In this document: piece after piece, positions 7,352-24,613 of the stretch
Numbering within the stretch: position 1 is the first letter of the stretch
Layout of the letters: the number at the start of each line of letters is the position of its first letter
Virus record (IMG/VR): IMGVR_UViG_3300036945_000379
Span: 1-29,571 of that record
From: a virus
DNA length: 29,571 nt
Direction: 5' to 3' (one strand)
Made by a program: the position numbers and the translations under genes
Notes under the pieces: model-generated
The model's input: only the letters and a program-made list of their open reading frames with translations
The model's database searches: none
What the model was told of the DNA's origin: nothing

Positions 7352-7726
7352 ATGAAAAAAATGATTTGGGTTACCTTCCAAAAAGAAGGCATACACAAGT
7401 ATCCAGCGGCTCTAACTGATCCTAACTTGGCTACCGGCGATGAATATGATGTCAGCTTTCTTGGCTATCCTCACAGACACATGTTCCATTTTAAAGTAGC
7501 CATTGAAGTGTTTCATGATGATCGTGACATTGAATTTATTCAATTTAAACGCTGGTTGGAAAATCTTTATAAAGGTGCTATACTAGCATTAGACTTTAAA
7601 AGTTGCGAGATGATCGCAGAAGATTTGTACACACAAATTAATGCTCGCCATCCCGGCAGAGCAGTAACCATAGAAGTAAGTGAGGATGGTGAAAATGGAT
7701 GCTACATTCAATTTGAACAGAAGTAA
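7352..7726 (+). CDS. Divergent QueD/6-pyruvoyl-tetrahydropterin synthase-like protein
   Basis: A 124-residue protein, the size of QueD. ATG 7352 abuts the previous stop; the longer frame from 7307 would overlap. QueD turns dihydroneopterin triphosphate into 6-carboxy-tetrahydropterin in 7-deazaguanine synthesis. By eye the order of elements matches the T-fold family: a first strand with H15, an HRH pair (H41, H43) at the start of the second strand (compare LHGH in QueD), IEFIQFKRWLE (compare IIDFAELK), 'KSCEMIAEDLYTQI' (compare PTSEVLAKWIW) and a final 'VTIEVSEDGENGCYI' strand. The catalytic Cys four residues before HGH and the LDH segment are not evident, so activity is unproven. The nearby FolE, QueE and DpdA genes support the idea. 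Confidence 0.5.
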   Translation: MKKMIWVTFQKEGIHKYPAALTDPNLATGDEYDVSFLGYPHRHMFHFKVAIEVFHDDRDIEFIQFKRWLENLYKGAILALDFKSCEMIAEDLYTQINARHPGRAVTIEVSEDGENGCYIQFEQK

Positions 7727-7736
7727 GGTGAGAACT

Positions 7737-8093
7737 ATGCATAATAATAATTCTTATGTAAGTCGTGCCATGATCAATATCAACGATATCAAGTATGATT
7801 TGTTGAAGATCAGTGAAATGTACGACGGAGTGTTACAAGATGGTCTTGGACACGTTGCCGCAGACATGTTCTGCAAATATCTACAAGACATGTGCGACCA
7901 GCGATGGATCCACAGTTTTGAGATCACAGAGATTGTGTTAAAAGAACACAGTTACACATACGACATTAATATTCAAATTACTAATGATCGTACTCCTAAG
8001 AAATTAAAGATCCATGTGGGTCTTTATAAGAGTGCTTGGCCTAGCTTTGCTAGTACAATGAAGAACACTGACGCAGGTTATGTAAATGCCTAA
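7737..8093 (+). CDS. Hypothetical protein upstream of dpdA
   Basis: A 118-residue protein. ATG 7737 is chosen over the upstream frame opening at 7680 because it follows the previous stop and an AAGGTGAG ribosome site. The sequence suggests an N-terminal helical part (about residues 10-60, with two Cys in 'MFCKYLQDMC') and a C-terminal pair of beta strands ('YDINIQITND', 'KLKIHVGLY'). No family recognised. It overlaps the DpdA start by 8 bases, so it is co-translated with it and could be a partner subunit; that is inference. Confidence 0.7.
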   Translation: MHNNNSYVSRAMININDIKYDLLKISEMYDGVLQDGLGHVAADMFCKYLQDMCDQRWIHSFEITEIVLKEHSYTYDINIQITNDRTPKKLKIHVGLYKSAWPSFASTMKNTDAGYVNA

Positions 8094-9648
8094 TCATAAA
8101 ACCCGTGTAGATTTAAAAACACGCAATAAAGACTATGCAGTCTTTTTGCCAAGTATCAGCGGGTTCTATCAAACCTTTATTAGTAAACAACAACAAGAAG
8201 AATTCGTTCCATTGAATAGAATTCCAAAAGAGTTTGAGAATGGCATTGAAGGTATGAACTTCCTTAACAAGGAACAAGCATACTTTTACTACCCTGATGC
8301 GTTATATTCTGCAGGTCACGCACAGTTAGATATAACTAAGAGTTATGTTGAAGAATCTATGGTTCAACAACGTGATAAAACTAACCCCGACAGTTTTATT
8401 CTTGGTGACTCGGGCGGATTCCAGATTGGTAAAGGCGTTATTAACTTTGACTGGCAGCATTTCTGGGAGAAGCAAGGCGATGCAGGTTATGTAGGCGCCG
8501 CGGATAAAACCCGTATGGCAATTCTTAACTGGCTAGAGTTCACTGCTGATTATAGCATGGTACTTGACTTGCCAACTTGGAGTGCCGCACCTATCAATCA
8601 AGCACGTACAGGTCTTAAAGACTTCGGTGATTGTCTACGTGGAACATTGTTTAACAATGATTTCTTCTTAAAACATCGTCAAGGTAAGACTAAGTTCCTA
8701 AACGTTCTTCAAGGTGGTACTAACGAAGACGCTGACACTTGGTATGAAGCTGTCAAGCATTATCCATTTGAAGGTTGGGCTATGGGTGGTAATAACATGA
8801 AGGACGCAGACTTAATGTTACGACGCTTAGTTAAACTACGTGATGAAAAGTTGCTGGAGCCTGGACGTGATGTTATTCACTTCTTGGGTACTAGTAAACT
8901 TGAACTCGCTTGTTTGCTTACTGCCGTTCAACGTAATCTACGTGAACATGTTAATCCTAATATGAAGATTACATTTGACTGTGCTAGTCCGTTCTTAGCT
9001 ACTGCTTATGGACAGGCTTATACACAGCACGTTCATCGTAACAATCGTTTTAGTTACATTATGGATAAGGCCATTGATGATAGACGTCTTGCTGGTAGTG
9101 ATACGCCTTGGCCTTGGGGCAGTCCGGTCGGCGAACGTATGACTATGGGAGATGCTTGTTATTACAAACCCGGTGACTTGAATAAGTTAGGCAAGGAAAG
9201 TAGAACAAGTTGGGATAGCTTTGCTTACTTCTTAATGATGGGTCATAATGTATATCAACACATCGAATCTGTTCAACGTGCTAACGCATTGAATGATACT
9301 GCTTGTGTGTTACACAAACCTGATCCCGGTCATTGGCATCCTACTAAAGGCACTAATGGTGAACTTAGTAACTGGGTTCCGCGTAATGTGATCTATATCA
9401 CAGAGTTAGTTAATCGTGTGTTTACCAGTGAAACACCTTTTACCGAACTTGACCGAGCTTCTAAATTACTTGCTGACTTTAACGGCAAGAAAACTCTTAA
9501 GACTAATGCCAAAGCTAATAACTTGCTTTTTGAAATCGAAGATCCAAAAACAGGCGAGAAGATCATTGACAAAGGCAGCGATAATGACTCTGCCATAGTC
9601 GATGATTGGGATCTAAGCGAAGCTGAAAACATCTTAAAAGACGCATAA
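8086..9648 (+). CDS. dpdA: DpdA-type tRNA-guanine transglycosylase homologue (DNA 7-deazaguanine insertion)
   Basis: A 520-residue TGT-superfamily enzyme. Bacterial TGT exchanges guanine for preQ1 in tRNA; phage DpdA proteins exchange guanine for a 7-deazaguanine in DNA. Visible TGT elements, in order: DSGGFQ (D108 onward), LDLP (160-163), VLQGG (207-211) with GWAMGG (230-235), and FDCASPF with D298 in the place of the nucleophile Asp. The Cys-x-Cys-x2-Cys zinc site of bacterial TGT is not seen, and the protein is longer than a tRNA TGT, both favouring a DpdA-like phage enzyme. FolE and QueE in the same window support this. It heads a chain of overlapping genes. Confidence 0.85.
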   Translation: MPNHKTRVDLKTRNKDYAVFLPSISGFYQTFISKQQQEEFVPLNRIPKEFENGIEGMNFLNKEQAYFYYPDALYSAGHAQLDITKSYVEESMVQQRDKTNPDSFILGDSGGFQIGKGVINFDWQHFWEKQGDAGYVGAADKTRMAILNWLEFTADYSMVLDLPTWSAAPINQARTGLKDFGDCLRGTLFNNDFFLKHRQGKTKFLNVLQGGTNEDADTWYEAVKHYPFEGWAMGGNNMKDADLMLRRLVKLRDEKLLEPGRDVIHFLGTSKLELACLLTAVQRNLREHVNPNMKITFDCASPFLATAYGQAYTQHVHRNNRFSYIMDKAIDDRRLAGSDTPWPWGSPVGERMTMGDACYYKPGDLNKLGKESRTSWDSFAYFLMMGHNVYQHIESVQRANALNDTACVLHKPDPGHWHPTKGTNGELSNWVPRNVIYITELVNRVFTSETPFTELDRASKLLADFNGKKTLKTNAKANNLLFEIEDPKTGEKIIDKGSDNDSAIVDDWDLSEAENILKDA

Positions 9649-10535
9649 TGAAAAAAGCACTTATAATTGGATTAGGCTTTGGCCAGGCTGTTTATCGGCC
9701 TGTGCTAACAGAACTTGGTTATGAAGTGATTACTGTTGACATGGATACATCTAAAGGTGCTGATTTTTCAAACCTAGACGATGCTATTCGTGTTCACGGT
9801 AAATTTGATACTGTGAACATTTGTACTCCAAACTTTACACATATCAAGTTAGCAAGAAAAGTTGCCGCACTTAGTAAGATAGTATTTGTTGAAAAACCAG
9901 GCGTTGCCAACAGTGAAGCATGGCGACAACTTTGTTTTGATTATCCCGAGACTCGTTTCATGATGGTTAAGAATAATCAATATCGTGATACTATTGCACA
10001 GTTCAAACTACTTGCAGATCAAAGTCATACTGTTAGACTTGTTTGGAATAACAAAAATCGTATCCCAAATCCAGGTAGTTGGTTTACCACAAAAGAATTA
10101 GCCTTTGGTGGCGTTAGCCGTGATTTAATGCCTCATATGTTAAGTTATTATGTGGCATTGACAGACTACGCAAAAGGTAATAAACTATACAGTAACGCAG
10201 TACAACGACATGAACTCAAAGATATTACTGATACTGATTACGGCGTTGTCAATCGTGATGGCGCTTACGATGTCGATGACTTCTGTGAATTCGAATTTAA
10301 AAACGGCAACACAACTTGGGTCTTGACTGCTAACTGGAAAGACAATAAAGCTGATGATGTTTATATTAGTTTTGATATGAAGAATAGTGCCGCTAAGTTT
10401 GTTCTAGGTTTATGTCCAGAAGAAGCATACAAGGCAATGATAGAAACCGCTGTTACAAACCTAAATAATGACGAGTTCTGGAAAGAACAATTACAACAGG
10501 ATCTTTGGATCCACAAGCAAATAGAAAACTTATGA
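9648..10535 (+). CDS. Gfo/Idh/MocA-family oxidoreductase
   Basis: A 295-residue NAD(P)-dependent dehydrogenase-like protein. The N-terminal Rossmann fold has GLGFGQAV (residues 8-15), a 'TVDMD' acidic end of strand two, 'NICTPNFTH' (57-65) and EKPG with the conserved catalytic Lys83. The C-terminal half is the expected mixed alpha/beta dimer domain. Members usually oxidise or reduce sugars or inositols. It starts in a TAATG overlap with dpdA and ends in an ATGA overlap with a zinc-type dehydrogenase, so the three are made together. The substrate cannot be read from sequence. Confidence 0.88.
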   Translation: MKKALIIGLGFGQAVYRPVLTELGYEVITVDMDTSKGADFSNLDDAIRVHGKFDTVNICTPNFTHIKLARKVAALSKIVFVEKPGVANSEAWRQLCFDYPETRFMMVKNNQYRDTIAQFKLLADQSHTVRLVWNNKNRIPNPGSWFTTKELAFGGVSRDLMPHMLSYYVALTDYAKGNKLYSNAVQRHELKDITDTDYGVVNRDGAYDVDDFCEFEFKNGNTTWVLTANWKDNKADDVYISFDMKNSAAKFVLGLCPEEAYKAMIETAVTNLNNDEFWKEQLQQDLWIHKQIENL

Positions 10536-11437
10536 CAAGAATACTACAAACAACTGGTCAAGGTAATTTTATAGAAACTACATGGGATAATCCAGATTGT
10601 GGCGATTATGAGATTACCGTCGAAAGCATTATGACAGGCGTGTGCCGTAGTGACATTGATATGATGAACGGTGACTTTGGTCCTTTGCCTATTAATATGC
10701 AAGGACACGAAGGATTAGGTCGCGTAATTAAAGTTGGTAAAAATATTGGAATGACGCAAGTAGGAGACATTGTAGCTACTCGCGGAGAGCCTGCTTATGC
10801 AGATGTATACAACGTTAGAGCCAATGAATATGTAGTAGTGCCAGAAGCACATCCTAGATATATTTTAGAACCAGTAGCCTGTGGTATTAATGTAGTACAA
10901 CAACCAATTAGAGAAATTTCCGAACGTGCGGGACCAGGTAAAAAATTATTAATACTTGGCAGTGGTTTTCTTGCGTGGATTGCTTATAACACGATTAAAC
11001 TTAATCATTTAGATTTTGAAATCACAGTAGTAGGTAATAGCAACAAAGAACTTTGGAGTGAAGTTCTGCATCAAGACTATGAAGGCACATTTGATGTCAT
11101 CATTGACTTGAGCAGTAAGATGGATGTTTTTGAGAAACCCATTCTAAATAATGAAGCATTAGTAGTATTTGGCAGTCAAAAACAAGTTACTACAGACTTT
11201 AGTAATTTACTTTGGAAGGCGTGTACTATGATATTCCCAAGTCCAAGAACAGACGGCTTTTATCATTGTATGAAAGATGCGGCATATTGGATTGAACAAG
11301 GTGATATTCAAGTTGACAGCTTCTGGACTCAAGCGTATAATAGAGACACTGAATGGCAATCTGCATTTGCTGATGGCCTAGACCGTCCTGCAGGTTATAG
11401 CAGAGGATACATTTATTGGAACAAAGATGGCAATTGA
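10532..11437 (+). CDS. Zinc-type medium-chain dehydrogenase (MDR/alcohol dehydrogenase-like)
   Basis: A 301-residue medium-chain dehydrogenase. ATG 10532 is chosen for its ATGA overlap; the frame opens earlier at 10505. The catalytic zinc ligands are visible: C38 in GVCRSDID, H59-E60 in GHEGLG, and an EP pair at 113-114. The four-Cys structural zinc lobe is absent. The nucleotide-binding motif is ILGSGFLAW (141-149). It is shorter than typical members (about 340-380 residues), the loss being in the structural lobe and cofactor domain. Together with the Gfo/Idh gene before it, this looks like a two-step sugar or polyol oxidation/reduction pair; the substrate is unknown. Confidence 0.85.
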   Translation: MTRILQTTGQGNFIETTWDNPDCGDYEITVESIMTGVCRSDIDMMNGDFGPLPINMQGHEGLGRVIKVGKNIGMTQVGDIVATRGEPAYADVYNVRANEYVVVPEAHPRYILEPVACGINVVQQPIREISERAGPGKKLLILGSGFLAWIAYNTIKLNHLDFEITVVGNSNKELWSEVLHQDYEGTFDVIIDLSSKMDVFEKPILNNEALVVFGSQKQVTTDFSNLLWKACTMIFPSPRTDGFYHCMKDAAYWIEQGDIQVDSFWTQAYNRDTEWQSAFADGLDRPAGYSRGYIYWNKDGN

Positions 11438-11936
11438 TACAATAGGCCGTAAGGCAACAACTTATTTTATTGGTACAGAAGTAGAACGTACCGCTATGTA
11501 TGGTGAACGCACATTATTCGTGGTAGGTGTTCAACCTGTAGATAAAATTGTTAGTCTACTTAATGAGCATAAGCTACGTCACGTTTATCTCGGCACAAGT
11601 CAAAGTTTTACTCCTAAAGACTATGATGACTGGAAAGCCTGGGATTATATGATTGTTGAGTTGTTAGACGCAGGTTATTGGGTTACACTTGACTTCGGTG
11701 TAGAATACGCTGATACGTTTAACGAAGAAGGATGGAGTGAATATAACACATTCATTCCTATGATTAGCGTTAAACTTCCTCATATTAAATTGTATAATTA
11801 TAATGCTACACTAAAGATTGATGATACTACATGGGGTCATAGTAATCCAGGCGTATGGTGTCATAGTCTACACGACTTATTAGACCGTAAAGTTTACACA
11901 GACTGGAAAGATTATGTAGGAGACGAAAATGTCTAA
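11427..11936 (+). CDS. Hypothetical protein between dehydrogenase and glycosyltransferase
   Basis: A 169-residue protein, starting in an 11-base overlap with the dehydrogenase and ending in an 8-base overlap with the glycosyltransferase. The sequence reads as an alpha/beta fold: strands at 'TLFVVGVQ' (about 27-34), 'RHVYLGTSQSF' (48-58), 'YWVTLDFGVEY' and 'FIPMISVKLP', with a Trp- and His-containing 'TWGHSNPGVWCHSLHDLL' segment near the C-terminus. The alternation suggests a Rossmann-like or TIM-barrel-fragment core. No family recognised. Its strict sandwiching argues for a part in the same pathway. Confidence 0.75.
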   Translation: MAIDTIGRKATTYFIGTEVERTAMYGERTLFVVGVQPVDKIVSLLNEHKLRHVYLGTSQSFTPKDYDDWKAWDYMIVELLDAGYWVTLDFGVEYADTFNEEGWSEYNTFIPMISVKLPHIKLYNYNATLKIDDTTWGHSNPGVWCHSLHDLLDRKVYTDWKDYVGDENV

Positions 11937-12987
11937 GATATTTTTAGTTGATTTAGAATCAGTTAGCACTCGCTATACTGGTCAGTGGAAAGAGCATGTT
12001 CCACAATTACTTAAAAAGGCAGGTCATGAAGTTCAAGTCATATCGGGTCCTAGCGATATCCCTAGCGCCACTACTCCTGGTGCATTTCTTAATTTTGGGG
12101 GCACTAATATCTATAAGGCAGACCAAGTTGCACAGCTTGGAAGACTTTTTTGTTCAGGATCCGTCCAGGCTGGCGATCATTTTATCTTTACTGACGCTTG
12201 GCATCCAGGTATCATCAACCTGAAGTATATGAGCGAGTTGCTGGGCATCCCAGTAACCACACACGGACTATGGCATGCTGGTAGTTATGATCCGCAAGAC
12301 TTCTTAGGACGTCTTGTAGGTAACAAGCCTTGGGTTAGAAATGCTGAAAAGAGTTTCTTTCACGCATTTGATCATAACTACTTTGCCACAGACTTTCACA
12401 TTGAAATGTTTTCTAATAACTTGTTTCACGACGAGGATGTAGAACTAGCCGATGACAAAGTTATACGCACAGGTTGGCCCATGGAGTATATGGACGAAAC
12501 CCTAAAGCCATTTAAGAATTTAAACAAACGAGATCTTATCTTGTTCCCGCATCGTATCGCTCCAGAGAAGCAAGTCGAAATCTTTAGAGATCTAAAAAAA
12601 CATTTGCCTCAATATGAATTTGTGGTATGTCAAGATGACCAACTAACTAAAAAACAATATCATACATTGTTAGGTCAAGCTAAAATGGTGTTCAGTGCCA
12701 ACTTGCAAGAAACACTGGGCATTAGTTGCTACGAAGGCGCCATAGTAAATGCCATCCCAATGGTTCCAGATAGACTAAGCTATAGCGAAATGTACTTGGA
12801 CGTATTCAAATACGAAAGCAAATGGACAGAGTCTTGGGAGGCATACAATGTGTATCGTCCTGATCTATGTCGTGCTATCATAACACACATGGATTATTAT
12901 CATACTCGTCTACGCCAGCTTAAAGAACAAACAGAATATTTGTCTATGAACTTCTTTAGTGCCAATGATATGTTAAAAAATCTATAA
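11929..12987 (+). CDS. GT-B fold glycosyltransferase (GT4-like)
   Basis: A 352-residue glycosyltransferase. The C-terminal nucleotide-sugar domain shows LILFPHRIAPEKQ (about 203-215), a 'EFVVCQDDQ' strand, and an EX7E motif (E261 to E269) within QETLGISCYEGAIVNAIPMVP, typical of GT4-type retaining enzymes. The N-terminal acceptor domain has 'WKEHVPQLLKKAGHEVQVI' (20-38), the usual first helix and strand. It overlaps the genes on both sides. The acceptor is unknown; DNA (through the modified base), virion protein or lipid are all possible. Confidence 0.82.
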   Translation: MSKIFLVDLESVSTRYTGQWKEHVPQLLKKAGHEVQVISGPSDIPSATTPGAFLNFGGTNIYKADQVAQLGRLFCSGSVQAGDHFIFTDAWHPGIINLKYMSELLGIPVTTHGLWHAGSYDPQDFLGRLVGNKPWVRNAEKSFFHAFDHNYFATDFHIEMFSNNLFHDEDVELADDKVIRTGWPMEYMDETLKPFKNLNKRDLILFPHRIAPEKQVEIFRDLKKHLPQYEFVVCQDDQLTKKQYHTLLGQAKMVFSANLQETLGISCYEGAIVNAIPMVPDRLSYSEMYLDVFKYESKWTESWEAYNVYRPDLCRAIITHMDYYHTRLRQLKEQTEYLSMNFFSANDMLKNL

Positions 12988-13427
12988 TGTTTATTATATA
13001 CTTTTTATTGTGGACATTGATATTGTACGCTGTGCATCGTGCTGTTCATAACTTGCCGTATTTAAAAGATATTCATCGAGAGCATCATAGGTATGTTGTC
13101 CGTAGTAAAGAATCTGGAATAGCATTAAGACATTTCTTTCTTATTCATAAATCAAAAGATTACACTATTGATTTATGGATTACAGAAGTTGTTCCTACTA
13201 TTCTATTTTCCTTAGTAACAGGCCAACTATGGATATTAGTTATTTACTATATTTGGGCGGCATTGTTTCAAACATCTACAAAGTACGACACTAATTTTGA
13301 TGTGTTTCCTCTTACATGGGGTGCATGGACACTACTTCACTATAGACATAATTCAAATAATTTTGGCAGTATATTTACTATATGGGATAGACTTTTTAAA
13401 ACTAATAAAGGAATAAATCAAATATGA
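12987..13427 (+). CDS. Fatty acid hydroxylase/sterol desaturase-like membrane protein
   Basis: A 146-residue membrane protein with the His boxes of the non-haem di-iron hydroxylase superfamily: HRAVH (17-21), HREHH (30-34) and HYRHNSNNFG (118-127, where H118 and H121 are kept and the last His of HxxHH is Asn). Hydrophobic segments lie at about 1-15 and 66-95. It is shorter than cellular members (usually over 200 residues). The start forms TAATG with the glycosyltransferase stop. Such enzymes use O2 and two irons to hydroxylate or desaturate lipids. The substituted last His leaves activity open. Confidence 0.72.
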   Translation: MFIIYFLLWTLILYAVHRAVHNLPYLKDIHREHHRYVVRSKESGIALRHFFLIHKSKDYTIDLWITEVVPTILFSLVTGQLWILVIYYIWAALFQTSTKYDTNFDVFPLTWGAWTLLHYRHNSNNFGSIFTIWDRLFKTNKGINQI

Positions 13428-13777
13428 TTAAAATACAAAGTTATGGATCTACTCCTGGTTGGTATCAAGTAGATACTAGTTATAATCAACCGAGTATTAC
13501 TGGCGCTGTTCAATGGAATGGTTCTACTAAATGCTTTGAAGTTAGTACAGGCAGTACTTGGATGCGAATAGATAATACTGTTCAAATTCATAATAGCAGT
13601 ACCTATGATATAAATGTTATCGGGGCATGGGTGCATAAAAAGATGCAAGAGGAAGAAGAAACTAAGAAACTGCGTAGTAAATACCCAGCACTAGATGAAG
13701 CATACAATCATTTGGATTTGATTAAAGCATTAGTTACATCTGGAACAGAAGAAAATAGCGTACAAACAGGACCATGA
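13424..13777 (+). CDS. Small fibre/virion-like protein
   Basis: A 117-residue protein. Residues 1-60 are beta-rich and Gly/Ser/Thr-rich, with 'GAVQWNGSTKCFEVSTGSTW' (about 23-42), a phrase of the kind seen in phage tail fibre and head decoration proteins ('...W.g..f.v..G..W'). A charged helix 'KKMQEEEETKKLRSKYPALDEAYNHLDLIKAL' follows (about 70-104, given here only in part as the key region). The SKYP-containing end resembles that of the protein at 16018-16425. It sits in an ATGA chain between enzymes, unusual for a structural protein. Confidence 0.65.
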   Translation: MIKIQSYGSTPGWYQVDTSYNQPSITGAVQWNGSTKCFEVSTGSTWMRIDNTVQIHNSSTYDINVIGAWVHKKMQEEEETKKLRSKYPALDEAYNHLDLIKALVTSGTEENSVQTGP

Positions 13778-14235
13778 TATTCAACAAAATTAAAAAGTTA
13801 AAAGAAGATGGATTAAAAGTCGGTATAACTTTTAGTACATTTGATTTATTTCACGCAGGGCATGTAGCTATGTTAGCTGAAGCAAAAAATCACTGCGACT
13901 ATCTAATTGCCGCACTACAAACAGATCCAACCATTGATCGACCTGATACTAAAAATCCGCCGATACAAAGTATTGTAGAACGACAAATACAATTAAGTAC
14001 AAATCGTAATGTGGATGAAGTTGTTATTTATCAAACAGAAAAAGACTTAGAAGACCTATTGCTTATTCTACCTATTGATGTTAGAATACTAGGCGTAGAG
14101 TACGCAGACAAAGAGTTTACAGGAAAACAAATCTGCAGAGATCGTGGAATTGAAATTGTGTTTAACGGAAGAGATCACAGTTTTAGTTCAAGCAGTTTGC
14201 GTAAGCGAGTAGTACAAGCAGAAAGTAAAAAATGA
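13774..14235 (+). CDS. Cytidylyltransferase/adenylyltransferase-family nucleotidyltransferase
   Basis: A 153-residue nucleotidyltransferase of the RfaE2/TagD type, full length for the family. It shows the HxGH motif in FDLFHAGH (H27, H30), the 'TDPT...' region after strand two, and SSSSLRKR near the C-terminus, matching the family's second nucleotide-binding signature. Members couple CTP or ATP to glycerol-phosphate, heptose-phosphate or phosphopantetheine. The neighbours (a UDP-sugar dehydrogenase directly after in an ATGA overlap, a glycosyltransferase before) point to making an activated sugar or polyol. The substrate cannot be told from sequence. Confidence 0.85.
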   Translation: MIFNKIKKLKEDGLKVGITFSTFDLFHAGHVAMLAEAKNHCDYLIAALQTDPTIDRPDTKNPPIQSIVERQIQLSTNRNVDEVVIYQTEKDLEDLLLILPIDVRILGVEYADKEFTGKQICRDRGIEIVFNGRDHSFSSSSLRKRVVQAESKK

Positions 14236-15035
14236 AAACAAAAGTAGCAATTATAGGAATGGGTTTCGTAGGCGGTGCAATACATAATTCTTTTTCTAAT
14301 AACACGAATGTAGAATTACTTGCTATCGATCCAGCAAAAGGTTGGATGGCATCATATCTTGACATAATTAACTTTGATGCAGTATTTGTCTGTGTGCCTA
14401 GTCCACAACGTCCAGACGGATCGTGTGACACAAGCATATTAGTTGAAGTATTAAATCAATTATCTATTGTAAACTTTAAAGGTGTTATCATTAGCAAAGT
14501 TACAGCAATACCAAGTGTATACACAGGATTACAATCAAAGTATACAAACTTAGTACATGCTCCAGAGTTTCTAACTGCGGCTAATGCTATATCGGATTAT
14601 GTCAATGGTAGCTTTGCTGTTATTGGCGGAGCAACTACAGCATATAGAAACGAAGCAGAACGCATCATTCGTTTAAGCCAACCAAATTTAAATTCAGTAA
14701 CACATTGTAGTATTGGAGAAGCTAGCTTTGCCAAATATACAATCAACAGCTTCCTTGCTACTAAAGTTATTTTTATGAATGAAATGGCAAAACTAGCCCA
14801 AGAAAATGGTTGTGATTGGAACAGCATTAAACAAGCAGTTGCACAGGATAAACGGCTTGGTGCCAGTCATATGCAAGTGCCTGGTCCAGATGGCGAATAT
14901 GGTTTTGGTGGTATGTGTTTTCCAAAAGACACAAATGCCATGGTCAAGTTTGCAGAATGGTGTGAACAGGATCTAAGTGTTTTGGCTACAGCAGTTGCAA
15001 AGAATAATAAAATTCGCTTGACTGAACCTAAATAA
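14232..15035 (+). CDS. UDP-glucose/GDP-mannose dehydrogenase family protein, C-terminally short
   Basis: A 267-residue protein. It has the Rossmann motif AIIGMGFVGG (6-15), CVPSPQRPDG (54-63), APEFL (110-114), the central helix with the conserved Lys and Asn in 'KYTINSFLATKVIFMNEMA' (168-186), and the catalytic Cys229 in GGMCFPKDT. This covers the NAD domain and the dimerisation domain, but the third, UDP-binding domain of 390-450-residue members is absent; the stop is a clean TAA. The first steps (oxidation through a Cys thioester) could still be possible on another substrate. The -35 of the FolE promoter lies in its last codons. Confidence 0.85.
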   Translation: MKTKVAIIGMGFVGGAIHNSFSNNTNVELLAIDPAKGWMASYLDIINFDAVFVCVPSPQRPDGSCDTSILVEVLNQLSIVNFKGVIISKVTAIPSVYTGLQSKYTNLVHAPEFLTAANAISDYVNGSFAVIGGATTAYRNEAERIIRLSQPNLNSVTHCSIGEASFAKYTINSFLATKVIFMNEMAKLAQENGCDWNSIKQAVAQDKRLGASHMQVPGPDGEYGFGGMCFPKDTNAMVKFAEWCEQDLSVLATAVAKNNKIRLTEPK

Positions 15036-15090: not shown

Positions 15091-15828
15091 ATGACAGAAC
15101 CAGTAACATTAAACAACATAGACGACAAGGGCTATGAAGAAGCATATCTAGGCGATCATCTTCGCTTTAAAATGAAACGTGAAGGCAAACGTTTTTGGGC
15201 GGGAGATAACATCAGCGATTATCTATACGAAGGCGACATAGAAAAACTAATTGACGAGGCAACACCTGCATTTGAACAAGTGCTAGACAGTTTGCTTATT
15301 GATCGTGAAAACGATCCTAATAGCAAAGGTACTGCAAGACGTCTTGCTAAGATGTACTTTAATGAAATTATGGCAGGAAGATATGAACCAGCACCAGACG
15401 CTACAGCGTTCCCAAATGATTCAACGGACCGTTATGAAGGTATGCTTGTTGTTCGTAGTGAGCTTCGCAGTATGTGTAGCCATCATCACCAACCCGTTAG
15501 TGGCGTTGCTTATATTGGCATCATTGCCGCTGAGAAACTTATTGGACTCTCAAAGTACACCCGCATCGCTCAGTGGTGTGCAAGACGTGGTACTCTCCAG
15601 GAGGAACTTTGTAACGATATTGCTAGGGAAATCGAAAAAGCTACCGGAGCAAAAAATCTAGGTGTTTATATTCAAGCTACACATGGATGTTGTGAAAATC
15701 GTGGCATTATGGCACACTCTAGTCTAACACAGACAACAGTACTCAAAGGTTCTTTTAAAACTGATCCAGGTGCAAAGAAAGAATTCTTTGACAATATTAA
15801 ATTACAACAAGAATTTGCACCACGATGA
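15091..15828 (+). CDS. folE: GTP cyclohydrolase I (FolE)
   Basis: A 245-residue GTP cyclohydrolase I, which makes dihydroneopterin triphosphate, the entry point to both folate and 7-deazaguanine synthesis. The zinc ligands are visible: C129 and H132 in MCSHHHQP, and C200 in HGCCENRG. The substrate segments 'LIGLSKYTRIA' (150-160) and 'RRGTLQEEL' (165-173) are intact. The first 45 residues are an extension before the family core. It has its own promoter and ends in an ATGA overlap with the next gene. With QueE and DpdA nearby, its likely job is DNA base modification rather than folate supply. Confidence 0.95.
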   Translation: MTEPVTLNNIDDKGYEEAYLGDHLRFKMKREGKRFWAGDNISDYLYEGDIEKLIDEATPAFEQVLDSLLIDRENDPNSKGTARRLAKMYFNEIMAGRYEPAPDATAFPNDSTDRYEGMLVVRSELRSMCSHHHQPVSGVAYIGIIAAEKLIGLSKYTRIAQWCARRGTLQEELCNDIAREIEKATGAKNLGVYIQATHGCCENRGIMAHSSLTQTTVLKGSFKTDPGAKKEFFDNIKLQQEFAPR

Positions 15829-16912: not shown

Positions 16913-17164
16913 ATGCCTACGGTAAAAAGTCAGCAGTTAATATTCCTTAACTTTTGGGAATGTAAACAGTTAGAATATTGGTTAGCTGATAACTTTCCTG
17001 ATTGTACTATTCGTAGTTTATACGATACTTGGTCTAGTCCAGAACAAGAAGAATGGTATGCCATAGAAGGTAACATATCACTTGACATGGAACTACTTCT
17101 GAAGTTAAAATACGGTAATAAATTAAAAGGCTCAAACGCAGGAATAAGATATGGACAAAATTAA
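16913..17164 (+). CDS. Hypothetical protein upstream of queE
   Basis: An 83-residue protein, starting one base after the previous stop and overlapping queE by 14 bases. Aromatic-rich, with 'FLNFWECKQLEYWLADNFPDC' features in the first third (two Cys) and a Trp-containing 'EEWYAIEGNI' strand. No family recognised. The tight overlap suggests translational coupling to queE. Confidence 0.65.
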   Translation: MPTVKSQQLIFLNFWECKQLEYWLADNFPDCTIRSLYDTWSSPEQEEWYAIEGNISLDMELLLKLKYGNKLKGSNAGIRYGQN

Positions 17165-18011
17165 AGTAAGTGAGATTTTTTATAGCGCACAAGGCGAAGG
17201 TCGCTTTATCGGCGTACCTAGTGTGTTCTTTCGCACATTCGGTTGTAACTTCAAATGCCCGGGCTTTGGCTTGCCCGCAGGACAAAAGACTACAGAGCCA
17301 GATGACATAGGTGCAAAAGTTCATCTATACAAAACATTTATGGACTTGCCATTGGCACAAACAGGCTGTGATAGTTATGCAAGTTGGCATCCTGCATTTA
17401 AACATCTAAGCCCTTACTATAGCATTGATGAAGCTATTGCAGAAATGTTAAAGCTAACTCCTAATCATGCATGGAAGCAAGACAATGGCAATGACGTACA
17501 CTTAGTTATTACTGGCGGTGAACCTTTGCTAGGATGGCAACAACTATATCCAGACTTGTTAAGTGAAAACAAGATGCGTGACTTAGAGAATCTTACATTT
17601 GAAACTAATGGTACTCAACATTTACATGAGGATTTTAAACGCTTCTTGATCAATGACTATCATCTACGCAAAGATCAAATTACATTTAGCGTTAGTCCTA
17701 AGCTAAGTGCCAGCGGAGAATCTTGGAAGGATGCAGTCTGTCCAGAAGTAGTAGCAGAATATCAAACACGTGGCTTTACTTACTTAAAGTTTGTTGTTGA
17801 TAAATTAGAAGACTTTAAAGAAGTAGATGCCGCTACAGCAGAGTATCGTGAAGCTGGATTTAAAGGTCCAGTATTTGTTATGCCTGTAGGCGGTACAGAT
17901 GCGGCATACTTTGCCAACAGTAAACACATTGCAGACATTGCTCTAGAACGAGGTTACAGATATAGTCCTAGATTACACGTAGACATTTGGTCTAACGGAT
18001 GGGGTAAATGA
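17151..18011 (+). CDS. queE: 7-carboxy-7-deazaguanine synthase, QueE-like radical SAM enzyme
   Basis: A 286-residue QueE homologue. QueE uses SAM and a 4Fe-4S cluster to turn 6-carboxy-tetrahydropterin into 7-carboxy-7-deazaguanine. It begins with EIFYSAQGEG (8-17) and 'GVPSVFFRTFGCNFKC', and has ITGGEPLL for SAM binding. The cluster motif is unusual: C32-x3-C36 is present but C39 is replaced by Phe, and the 'Cys-Asp' that normally completes the motif appears as GCDSY at C73, after an insertion (CX3CX36C). The insertion and the 'SWHPAFKHLSP' that follows are, from memory, shared by QueE-like proteins of other T4-like aquatic phages. It overlaps both neighbours. Confidence 0.88.
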   Translation: MDKIKVSEIFYSAQGEGRFIGVPSVFFRTFGCNFKCPGFGLPAGQKTTEPDDIGAKVHLYKTFMDLPLAQTGCDSYASWHPAFKHLSPYYSIDEAIAEMLKLTPNHAWKQDNGNDVHLVITGGEPLLGWQQLYPDLLSENKMRDLENLTFETNGTQHLHEDFKRFLINDYHLRKDQITFSVSPKLSASGESWKDAVCPEVVAEYQTRGFTYLKFVVDKLEDFKEVDAATAEYREAGFKGPVFVMPVGGTDAAYFANSKHIADIALERGYRYSPRLHVDIWSNGWGK

Positions 18012-21820: not shown

Positions 21821-22127
21821 CATTATCTTTGAACAATTACAAAAGTCAGTGGGTAAGGACTTAGAGTTTTTTCAAATATATAAAAATACCAAAGGTACTA
21901 GATTTACTAGTACAGGATTTGAACTAGCAAAACGTTTGTGGAAAACATATCCACTAAAATTCAAACAAGAGTATAGGGTACTAAACAAAACATTATTACT
22001 TTTAGACGAACGTATGGATTGGCCATATTACTTGAGTAAACGTCAGTTAGTTTTGTTCAGTGAGATGGATGCTTTTGAATTCACATTATATTCAGGTGAT
22101 ATAAATCTATGGGCCAACAAATTTTAA
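21786..22127 (+). CDS. Hypothetical helical protein
   Basis: A 113-residue protein, mainly helical, with a basic middle ('GFELAKRLWKTYPLKFKQ', about 44-61) and 'DWPYYLSKRQLVLFSEMDAFEF' features near the end. It overlaps its neighbours by 35 and 19 bases. The 'WPYYL...LVLFSEMDAFEFTLYSGDI' ending resembles, from memory, small conserved proteins of T4-like phages. Function unknown. Confidence 0.68.
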   Translation: MNQTLSKKQISDIIFEQLQKSVGKDLEFFQIYKNTKGTRFTSTGFELAKRLWKTYPLKFKQEYRVLNKTLLLLDERMDWPYYLSKRQLVLFSEMDAFEFTLYSGDINLWANKF

Positions 22128-22804
22128 ACACAATTAATGAACAGGGCTATTGTGTTGTTCGCAATTTAATCGATCAGGAAGACATCGATGACCTTAACTT
22201 TCTACAACACTATTTAGAACCACAGCGTGGGCATGATTTTACTGCCAAATATTTTCCTAAAAAGAAACTTGATGAAGCAGGAGAATTTGCTATATGGTGG
22301 AGTCAACAACTTACAGGTTGGGAATGTGTTAAATCTATTAACAATAAATTATTAGAAGTTTCTAAAGAGTGGTTTAATGACAGCGTTGTTTATGTCTGTG
22401 ATGTTATTACCAATGAACCAGGCAATAAATTTGTCAAGCCTCATATAGATACTCCTTATAGATTTGATCCTTGGCACGAAAGTTTCGAACTACTAGGAAT
22501 TCAATGTATTGTTCCTTTATGCGAATTCAATGAAGAAAATGGCGGCACTGGTTTATATCCAGGTAGCCATTTGAGAAATTGGGTAGTGCAAGATAGTTAT
22601 AAAGGTGTGTACACAGAAGAATTTTTGGCTAATGTAGTACAGCCGGAAATGGGTCCAGGCGATGTACTAATGTATAATCCAAGGGTATTACATAGTACTA
22701 TGCCAAATAATACAGATTTAAAACGCAGGGCCTTGCTAACCCATATAACTGCTAGAGAAATGGTAGACCAATTAAAATTGGTAGATAATATTTGGTTAGA
22801 GTAA
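22109..22804 (+). CDS. PhyH-type 2-oxoglutarate/Fe(II) dioxygenase
   Basis: A 231-residue dioxygenase of the phytanoyl-CoA hydroxylase family. The iron facial triad is visible: H112 and D114 in KPHIDTPY, and H195 in VLHSTMPN, with R206/R207 placed to bind 2-oxoglutarate. 'GGTGLYPGSH' (145-154) and 'MGPGDVLMYN' (181-190) are the usual strands between them. Such enzymes hydroxylate small molecules, amino acids or nucleobases. It precedes the exported Lys/Pro/Ala-rich gene after a 91-base gap. Substrate unknown. Confidence 0.87.
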   Translation: MGQQILNTINEQGYCVVRNLIDQEDIDDLNFLQHYLEPQRGHDFTAKYFPKKKLDEAGEFAIWWSQQLTGWECVKSINNKLLEVSKEWFNDSVVYVCDVITNEPGNKFVKPHIDTPYRFDPWHESFELLGIQCIVPLCEFNEENGGTGLYPGSHLRNWVVQDSYKGVYTEEFLANVVQPEMGPGDVLMYNPRVLHSTMPNNTDLKRRALLTHITAREMVDQLKLVDNIWLE

Positions 22805-23358: not shown

Positions 23359-23370
23359 TGCCCATTTTTC
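23344..23370. terminator. Bidirectional terminator between convergent genes
   Basis: GAAAAATGGGC (23344-23354), loop TTAAT, GCCCATTTTTC (23360-23370): an 11-bp perfect stem with T runs on both strands. It covers the stop codon of the + strand small gene (23356-23358) and reaches the stop of the minus-strand radical SAM gene (23369-23371), so it can end transcription from both sides. Confidence 0.85.
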
Positions 23371-24613
23371 ACGAGTTCTTTTCTAACTCAGCTAACCAAG
23401 GTAATACTTCACGCCAGTTAGTTTGTCGCCTAGTATCAAGAATATCCAAACGTTGATATAATTCTTTTACAGCGGCTGGTCTTGCAGGACTACTTTCGAT
23501 TTCTGTAAAAATACTCTTTGCATAATGTTTGTATTCTCTATCCCCATACATTATCTCATTCAATTCAAGTATCTTTTCAATGTCTTTTGCAAATGTACCT
23601 TTGGGGAAAATATTAGGATCATAGATATATGGATCAATGACTTTGTTAAAGTTAACATTGATCGGTCTTCCATATTTGTCTTGCCATTCTATAACCTGTT
23701 GTTGTAGTTCATGAATATGTGGCATGCTCAATGAAGTTACACTCCAATTCATACCAGGCATTATTTCAGGACATTCTGCAAGTACGTATTCGAAGTTTTC
23801 TTTGAATGTAGCGATATCATGTCCATTGCGAATAAACTCGCCTTCGCGACCCCAAGCATCTATGGAGGTTGTAAGCTCTACGCTATTACAAGTTCTAGCT
23901 AACGCACGAACCTTTTCAATACCACGCTTAAACAATACAGGTTTAACCTGCATATTACTGTAAATTTCAAAATCAACTTCTGGGTTAGGATGTGCTTCGC
24001 ACCAATCAATACAATCAAATGTTTCTTTTTGTAAGAATGGTTCGCCGCCTAAAATATCAAATGCACGTAATCCTTGATAATTTTCTTCCATCCATTCATA
24101 GAACTTGGCAACACGTTCTTTATATGTAGCATCTAATTCCCAAGGGTCGATGTCATAATCTTTACCTTGTTCGTACTTCCATTCTTCTTTAACCCAACTG
24201 CTACTTTGATTTGGACCACAGTAGATACATTTCAAGTTACATTTATTATTAAAGTGAATAGACAGCATTGTTGGCTTGACATGAATAGCTGTTGGATCAG
24301 TATATAACTCTTTTGGCACATAGCGTTTATTGCCATCAGACTTTAAGAATTGAACTCTGTCACTCATTCCACTGTATTTTTCTTGATCCCTGCAATGCTC
24401 ACAGCCTCTGCCGTCACTGGGCCATTGATCGTTAAGCATTTTTGTTCTATGCTCTAAAACAATAGGAGTATTGTGAAAGTCAAAATTAGCGGGGATAGGT
24501 GCGTTTAAGTTTCTATGACAACCACTGCTGGTGTTTTCCCATAGATATAAACTTACTTGACTCCATTTTAATAAACACGATTTGCCCTTGGGCGGAAACC
24601 AATCTGCTGACAT
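23369..24613 (-). CDS. Radical SAM protein with N-terminal twitch-like region, minus strand
   Basis: A 414-residue radical SAM enzyme and the only minus-strand gene seen. The core cluster motif is CNLKCIYC (C125, C129, C132), followed by GGEPFLQ (about 194-200) and 'SIDAWGREGEFIRNG'. Before the core is a Cys-bearing N-terminal region (C13, C32, then C71-x2-C74 followed by 'S.M.dR'), like that of the protein at 1656-2825, so the two belong to one family. An AAAAGGA ribosome site precedes the start (read on the minus strand). Substrate unknown. It converges on the exported protein unit and is followed by a shared terminator. Confidence 0.87.
   Translation of the reverse strand: MSADWFPPKGKSCLLKWSQVSLYLWENTSSGCHRNLNAPIPANFDFHNTPIVLEHRTKMLNDQWPSDGRGCEHCRDQEKYSGMSDRVQFLKSDGNKRYVPKELYTDPTAIHVKPTMLSIHFNNKCNLKCIYCGPNQSSSWVKEEWKYEQGKDYDIDPWELDATYKERVAKFYEWMEENYQGLRAFDILGGEPFLQKETFDCIDWCEAHPNPEVDFEIYSNMQVKPVLFKRGIEKVRALARTCNSVELTTSIDAWGREGEFIRNGHDIATFKENFEYVLAECPEIMPGMNWSVTSLSMPHIHELQQQVIEWQDKYGRPINVNFNKVIDPYIYDPNIFPKGTFAKDIEKILELNEIMYGDREYKHYAKSIFTEIESSPARPAAVKELYQRLDILDTRRQTNWREVLPWLAELEKNS

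Follow-up and report, generated by a model that had tools for sequence, protein, structure and literature searches.

A glycosyltransferase that travels with DpdA in phages may add a sugar to 7-deazaguanine in DNA

We analysed a 29,571-base virus genome fragment from IMG/VR (record IMGVR_UViG_3300036945_000379, hereafter the window), in which a DNA polymerase-like gene and a clamp-like gene accompany a 7-deazaguanine gene set of dpdA, folE and queE. The dpdA gene (8086–9648), which encodes a putative DNA base-exchange enzyme resembling tRNA-guanine transglycosylase (TGT), is followed on the + strand by genes for a Gfo/Idh-type oxidoreductase (9648–10535), a zinc-dependent alcohol dehydrogenase (ADH) of the MDR type (10532–11437), a 169-residue protein with no assigned fold class (11427–11936), a type I glycosyltransferase (GT; 11929–12987) and a fatty-acid-hydroxylase-like di-iron protein (12987–13427). 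All six reading frames named in a preliminary description of this DNA are present, with stop/start overlaps of 1, 4, 11, 8 and 1 nucleotides between neighbours; the ADH start was placed at ATG 10532, which forms an ATGA overlap with the Gfo/Idh gene, in place of an upstream TTG at 10505. That description had dpdA at the head of an overlapping cassette. The cassette is real but was drawn too short, and dpdA does not head it: orf139 (7352–7726, +) and orf137 (7686–8093, +; a small protein without assigned function, found in 18 of the 60 clusters into which dpdA loci were grouped at 90% identity) precede dpdA, and the run reaches through a UDP-glucose dehydrogenase (UGDH)-like gene ending at 15035. 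All ten neighbour pairs within 7352–15035 overlap; of the 28 other pairs in the window, 13 do. Since overlaps are common elsewhere in this compact genome, overlap alone is weak evidence. Promoter-like sites were no more frequent in the window than in shuffled sequences (48 versus 43, standard deviation 5.4), so the limits of the operon cannot be read from them.

The association of the GT with dpdA was surveyed in virus contigs by searches anchored on dpdA, the GT (in three forms), gfo and orf139, each list comprising the best 80 matches from related viruses, so that the counts are not independent. The genes for DpdA, orf139 and the 169-residue protein were present at 56 of 56 GT-fetched loci flanked on each side by 6 kb or more of sequence, and dpdA was present at all 97 loci with full flanks that were fetched with two type II GTs. 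It also accompanied gfo at 79 of 80 loci. The sole remaining gfo locus (L293) shares contig 3300032307_000369 with a gfo-less dpdA–GT cassette (L101) about 110 kb away, and thus none of the 80 lies on a contig without dpdA. The preliminary description had proposed looking for relatives that carry the cassette without dpdA or the deazaguanine genes; none appeared in these counts of close and middle-distance relatives. The usual order in the 60 dpdA clusters is polymerase, clamp, dpdA, 169-residue protein, orf139, GT, folE and queE, with orf139 upstream of dpdA in the window's own clade. This co-occurrence suggests that the GT, orf139 and dpdA form one module, and the GT very probably works in the same pathway as DpdA.

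The same association is found in cultured phages. Among the 20 records with a GT relative in an annotated phage collection, 16 carry it in deazaguanine clusters, and these come from five unrelated lineages: Paride and its kin, Acidovorax phage ACP17, Xanthomonas phage X1, Synechococcus phage BUCT-ZZ01 and Sinorhizobium phage Phosso, the last with dpdA elsewhere in its genome. The window-type profile gives a marginal match at best to the DpdA proteins of ACP17, X1 and BUCT-ZZ01 (E = 2e-4, 0.74 and 0.16, respectively) and does not match that of phage 9g (E = 1.8). Despite their divergent DpdA, ACP17, X1 and BUCT-ZZ01 encode a GT and an orf139 homologous to those of the window. Some dpdA relatives, such as those of Pseudomonas putida phages, are not accompanied by a window-type GT.

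A scan of bacterial genomes gave 21 matches, several of which (e.g. L399, L401, L402 and L419) have the locus in its viral form, clamp gene included, and could be viral contigs within assemblies. The alphaproteobacterial dpdA–GT pairs (L403–L414), often with orf139, are possible DNA-modification islands. The order is GT–orf139–dpdA in Magnetospirillum and dpdA, a VUT-family transporter gene, orf139 and GT in Aurantimonas, and in Azospirillum and an isolate of Rhizobiales the GT is likewise preceded by a transporter gene. The island transporters match PF02592, two of them above the cut-off, and YhhQ of the same family carries the deazaguanine preQ0 (PMC5372724). Integrase-like genes lie close to the chromosomal dpdA–GT loci, and the host genomes examined also encode an ordinary tgt elsewhere. 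No relative of either the GT or the orf139 of Aurantimonas was found on plasmids.

The window DpdA, the 169-residue protein and the GT do not reach a Pfam cut-off; PADLOC gave no match for these three or for orf139, and PHROGs gave none for the GT, the Gfo/Idh, the 169-residue or the hydroxylase-like protein. A profile built from 60 DpdA relatives matched one of genuine TGTs over 204 columns (hhalign E = 7.8e-4, with a low probability of 25% by the tool's own estimate); a comparison of a DpdA profile with PDB sequences showed no relation. In the TGT alignment, the motifs ILGDSGGFQ and FDCASP of DpdA are in register with ILTDSGGFQ and FDCVMP of TGT, and both catalytic aspartates, Asp108 and Asp298, are invariant in 29 aligned DpdA relatives. 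On these sequence features, the window DpdA is a TGT-like base-exchange enzyme. Its action on DNA would follow by analogy with the known phage DpdA family, in which TGT-like proteins encoded next to FolE, QueD and QueE are DNA enzymes (PMC6884629). Near the window dpdA lie folE, encoding GTP cyclohydrolase I (15091–15828, +; PF01227, 3.3e-38), and a gene for a QueE-like radical SAM protein (17151–18011, +), whose profile matches the annotated QueE of ACP17, X1 and Paride.

Canonical QueD (PF01242 over the cut-off) is separately encoded in 15 of 18 large relatives (13 of the 18 being incomplete records) and was not seen in the partial window. The same 18 relatives contained no full-length QueC (PF06508) and two partial matches just above the cut-off; the window itself is a fragment. 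Since clear QueC is lacking in the relatives, the pathway encoded by the phage probably stops at 7-carboxy-7-deazaguanine, from which the base is probably derived unless the host supplies preQ0. In 25 of the 60 clusters (L157:13844-14389 and 24 similar loci), a gene for a phosphoribosyltransferase-like protein lies between folE and queE, and a xanthine-guanine phosphoribosyltransferase gene adjoins queE in BUCT-ZZ01. In four clusters (L008:15348-16256, L010, L020 and L083), the hydroxylase-like gene is followed by one for a PP-loop ATPase-like protein that contains the motif FSGGADS, and a weak QueC match in the L083 genome coincides with the position of this gene.

Two further members of the module are candidates for processing the base. 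The orf139 product appears QueD-like (T-fold-like), aligning with a phage QueD profile over 42 columns (hhalign E = 3.5e-4) and leaving the PTPS family PF01242 unmatched. Its gene also adjoins folE, and in several cases queE or queD, in other phages without the GT. The idea that orf139 is the QueD of these phages was dropped, since ACP17 and other phages encode both. Cui reportedly described in 2023 phage DpdA variants with DpdL, DpdM and DpdN, DpdL being proposed as a phage 7-carboxy-7-deazaguanine decarboxylase. The orf139 product may be a counterpart of DpdL. The 169-residue protein, encoded in 54 of the 60 dpdA clusters, was modelled confidently by AF2 (pLDDT 91.9); Foldseek gave nothing below 1e-3 and its profile showed no relation to PDB sequences. 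A relation to QueE, whose structures rank near the top of the VIA-align results, was considered and kept as a lead only (5th5, Z = 6.4 over 128 residues, below the threshold of 8; profile E = 0.51).

The predicted structure of the window GT adopts a GT-B fold (AF2 pLDDT 86.5), with glycogen synthase (1.2e-10) and BshA (7e-10) as the top Foldseek matches. Arg209 and Lys214, which correspond to donor-phosphate residues, and Glu269 are invariant in 38 sequences; Glu261, the other acidic residue of the E-x7-E motif, is Glu in 28 and Asp in 10 of them. The relative in phage X1 matches Pfam Glycos_transf_1 (8e-12). By both its modelled fold and its sequence motifs, the window protein is a GT4-type retaining GT-B glycosyltransferase. 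In BUCT-ZZ01, a second, distant GT-like gene (447 residues, E = 6.6e-5 against the GT profile) lies between folE and dpdA (L173:3364-4707).

The genes around the GT differ according to its type. Among non-redundant clusters, a GalE-type epimerase gene accompanies 60 of the 63 type II GTs and none of the 86 type I GTs, and the gfo/adh pair lies near 46 of 86 type I GTs, a figure inflated by the gfo-anchored search, and none of 63 type II GTs. On the DpdA tree, changes number at least 7 for the GT type and at least 14 for the gfo pair; GalE tracked the GT type in about five of 6 independent pairs on this tree and opposed it in none. Since GalE accompanies type II and gfo/adh only type I, the sugar part of the module varies and the base part is constant. 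The Gfo/Idh protein matches PF01408 (9e-8, 33.3 bits; cut-off 24), with EKP and D-x3-H motifs invariant in 19 sequences, and its nearest solved structure is DgpA (7.8e-11), which oxidises a glycoside hydroxyl. The ADH matches PF08240 (2e-9, 38.1 bits; cut-off 23.5), and its catalytic zinc ligands Cys38, His59, Glu60 and Cys117 are invariant in 19 sequences. Relatives of gfo among 50,697 phage records were confined to 11 Paride-like phages, all with dpdA and the GT; in Paride, the gfo, adh and 169-residue genes are grouped 26 kb from dpdA–GT (L600:3140-5417; Paride 122139-124416).

The preliminary description had counted both dehydrogenases and the hydroxylase-like protein as cassette members. 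The dehydrogenases are indeed linked to dpdA, but they are optional (19 of 60 dpdA clusters) and occur with type I GTs only. The hydroxylase-like protein (PF04116, 1.7e-12, 48.4 bits; cut-off 31) lies outside the core; it is lineage-specific, encoded in 5 of the 60 clusters, and is probably a passenger. Three more genes follow it on the + strand: one for a small protein without assigned function, which recurs at variable places in 24 loci (13424–13777); one for an HldE-C/TagD-like nucleotidyltransferase (13774–14235; TIGR00125 above the cut-off, rfaE_dom_II 1.8e-21, below the cut-off); and the UGDH-like gene, encoding a short NDP-sugar dehydrogenase-like protein (14232–15035; PF00984 3.8e-20, PF03721 2.2e-11). 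This last protein gives no match to the C-terminal nucleotide-sugar domain in Pfam and is possibly not a true UDP-glucose dehydrogenase. Elsewhere in the window, two radical-SAM-like proteins with CNLxCxxC-type motifs (1659–2825 and 23369–24613 (-)) and a phytanoyl-CoA-dioxygenase-like protein (22109–22804) were recognised by eye from the translations. The window contains no Rfam match and no tRNA.

On the observed gene content, co-occurrence, folds and catalytic motifs, we propose with moderate confidence that the cassette serves to equip phage DNA with a 7-deazaguanine that bears a sugar. FolE, QueE and QueD, the last encoded at a separate site in most relatives, would produce 7-carboxy-7-deazaguanine, and orf139, perhaps together with the 169-residue protein, would process the deazaguanine base or its chemical handle. 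DpdA would then insert the base in place of guanine once the DNA is replicated. The GT would transfer a sugar from a nucleotide-sugar to the 7-deazaguanine, in DNA or prior to insertion, and the Gfo/ADH pair, by its resemblance to DgpA, may oxidise a hydroxyl of the sugar, either on the donor or after attachment, and then reduce it again. The resulting base would be a bulkier disguise that hides the DNA from restriction and from other defences directed at DNA. Glycosylation of the inserted 7-deazaguanine had already been suggested in the preliminary description; the placement of the GT within the deazaguanine module agrees with it, and the dehydrogenases and the hydroxylase-like protein turn out to be optional and outside the core, respectively.

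Other functions of the module need to be weighed against this proposal. The module might instead modify tRNA, protein or free deazaguanine; the TGT-like protein would then be a tRNA enzyme and the GT would give a glycosylated tRNA base, as in the glycosylation of eukaryotic queuosine. The TGT-like nature of DpdA fits this possibility, and some defence systems conjugate deazaguanine to protein (PMC13329287). However, phage TGT-like proteins in this gene context are DNA enzymes, as described above, an ordinary tgt is already present in each host genome examined, and dpdA adjoins polymerase and clamp genes; we therefore consider a target other than DNA unlikely. It is quite unlikely, in our estimate, that the GT and dehydrogenases constitute a surface or virion glycan pathway that merely shares the dpdA operon. 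In the window, the HldE-C-like and UGDH-like genes lie close to the GT and dehydrogenase genes, GT4 enzymes usually build glycans, and distant GT relatives of Xanthomonas phages adjoin amino-sugar genes. Yet the GT tracks orf139 and dpdA across the five isolated-phage lineages with differing gene orders, and the three genes also occur together in bacterial chromosomes without other phage genes. The presence of the HldE-like and UGDH-like genes varies (15 and 13 of the 60 dpdA clusters, respectively). The glycosylated 7-deazaguanine reading is much better supported than glycan genes merely sharing the operon.

The unbroken overlaps between 7352 and 15035 would suit a single pathway in which every member, including the hydroxylase-like protein, acts on the base. 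We regard this as very unlikely, since the hydroxylase-like and gfo/adh genes are present in only 5 and 19 of the 60 clusters and overlaps are frequent in the rest of the window. The least probable reading is that the GT adds a sugar to another base, such as a 5-hydroxymethylpyrimidine, and shares only a DNA-modification island with dpdA. Known phage DNA glucosyltransferases such as those of T4 act on hydroxymethylcytosine (PMC13216743), and thymidylate-synthase-family genes, a source of hydroxymethylases, are present in 6 of the 18 large relatives. The other 12 have no PF00303 gene, with the incompleteness of 13 of the 18 records applying here as well, and the GT tracks orf139 and dpdA even in bacterial chromosomes.

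Several observations weigh against a sugar-bearing 7-deazaguanine as proposed here. The co-occurrence counts come from related phages and best matches and are hence non-independent, and the sign test for GalE and GT type on independent pairs gives only p ~0.06. Four distant GT relatives (24.5%; three PhiXhv phages and Ep032) show no deazaguanine link; in PhiXhv-15, the sole distant record examined, the GT adjoins amino-sugar genes and orf139 is absent from the genome. The structural neighbours of the GT work on small molecules or glycans, and the best 50 Foldseek matches listed include no DNA glycosyltransferase, neither AGT nor BGT. The Gfo of Paride lacks the EKP motif and its ADH lacks the GHE zinc-ligand motif, and judging from these sequences the Paride pair may be decayed or non-catalytic. 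With no full-length QueC in the 18 large relatives, the sugar has no evident chemical handle. If orf139 is a decarboxylase, the carboxyl group at position 7 would be removed and no obvious place for attachment would be left there, which is the main problem for a sugar at this position. We infer the acceptor, the sugar, its attachment point, the order of the steps, the presence of the base in DNA and its biological effect.

The proposed system shares features with several known ones. Bacterial Dpd islands are likewise mobile and combine DpdA with base-processing proteins, but the islands found here carry the GT, and some of them a transporter gene, next to dpdA. The queuosine mannosyltransferase QTMAN/GTDC1 is also a GT4-like enzyme acting on a 7-deazaguanine nucleoside; it targets the cyclopentenediol of tRNA queuosine, and the window GT matched no QTMAN Pfam domain. 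BshA and other GT4 enzymes, the best structural neighbours of the window GT, make bacillithiol precursors or glycans and have no link to dpdA. DgpA, the nearest solved relative of the window Gfo/Idh, is a glycoside 3-oxidase for catabolic deglycosylation in gut bacteria, whereas the window protein is paired with a zinc-dependent ADH inside a dpdA cassette. The T4 alpha- and beta-glucosyltransferases, also of the GT-B class, protect phage DNA from host nucleases by coating it with sugar, as proposed here; they act on hydroxymethylcytosine, and the window GT differs from them in being GT4-like and in its tie to a module for purine modification. The phage DpdA systems of 9g, CAjan, Rosebush and nt-1 (PMC6884629) also encode a TGT-like DpdA, FolE and QueE by replication genes, and QueD as in most relatives of the window, but the window type shows no clear QueC, QueF-like or amidotransferase step and adds orf139, the 169-residue protein and a dpdA-tracking GT.

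A search of the open-licence literature gave no title or abstract on glycosylated 7-deazaguanine in DNA, and none is described in the passages checked. To our knowledge, and in the papers searched, the position-7 substituents of 7-deazaguanines known from DNA are all small. A DNA base of the proposed kind is likely, though unproven, to be new. Whether it represents a widespread hypermodification, in which a 7-deazaguanine derived without QueC from 7-carboxy-7-deazaguanine receives a sugar from a DpdA-linked GT with interchangeable GalE or Gfo/ADH modules in several phage families and alphaproteobacterial islands, seems to us evenly balanced. If the proposal is correct, it would show that glycosylation of the T4 kind also reaches a purine base, account for some of the accessory genes that surround dpdA in large phages of aquatic origin and provide a new bulky barrier against restriction and CRISPR nucleases. 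Since the isolated phages Paride, ACP17, X1, BUCT-ZZ01 and Phosso carry the core, this chemistry would be accessible in cultured phages.

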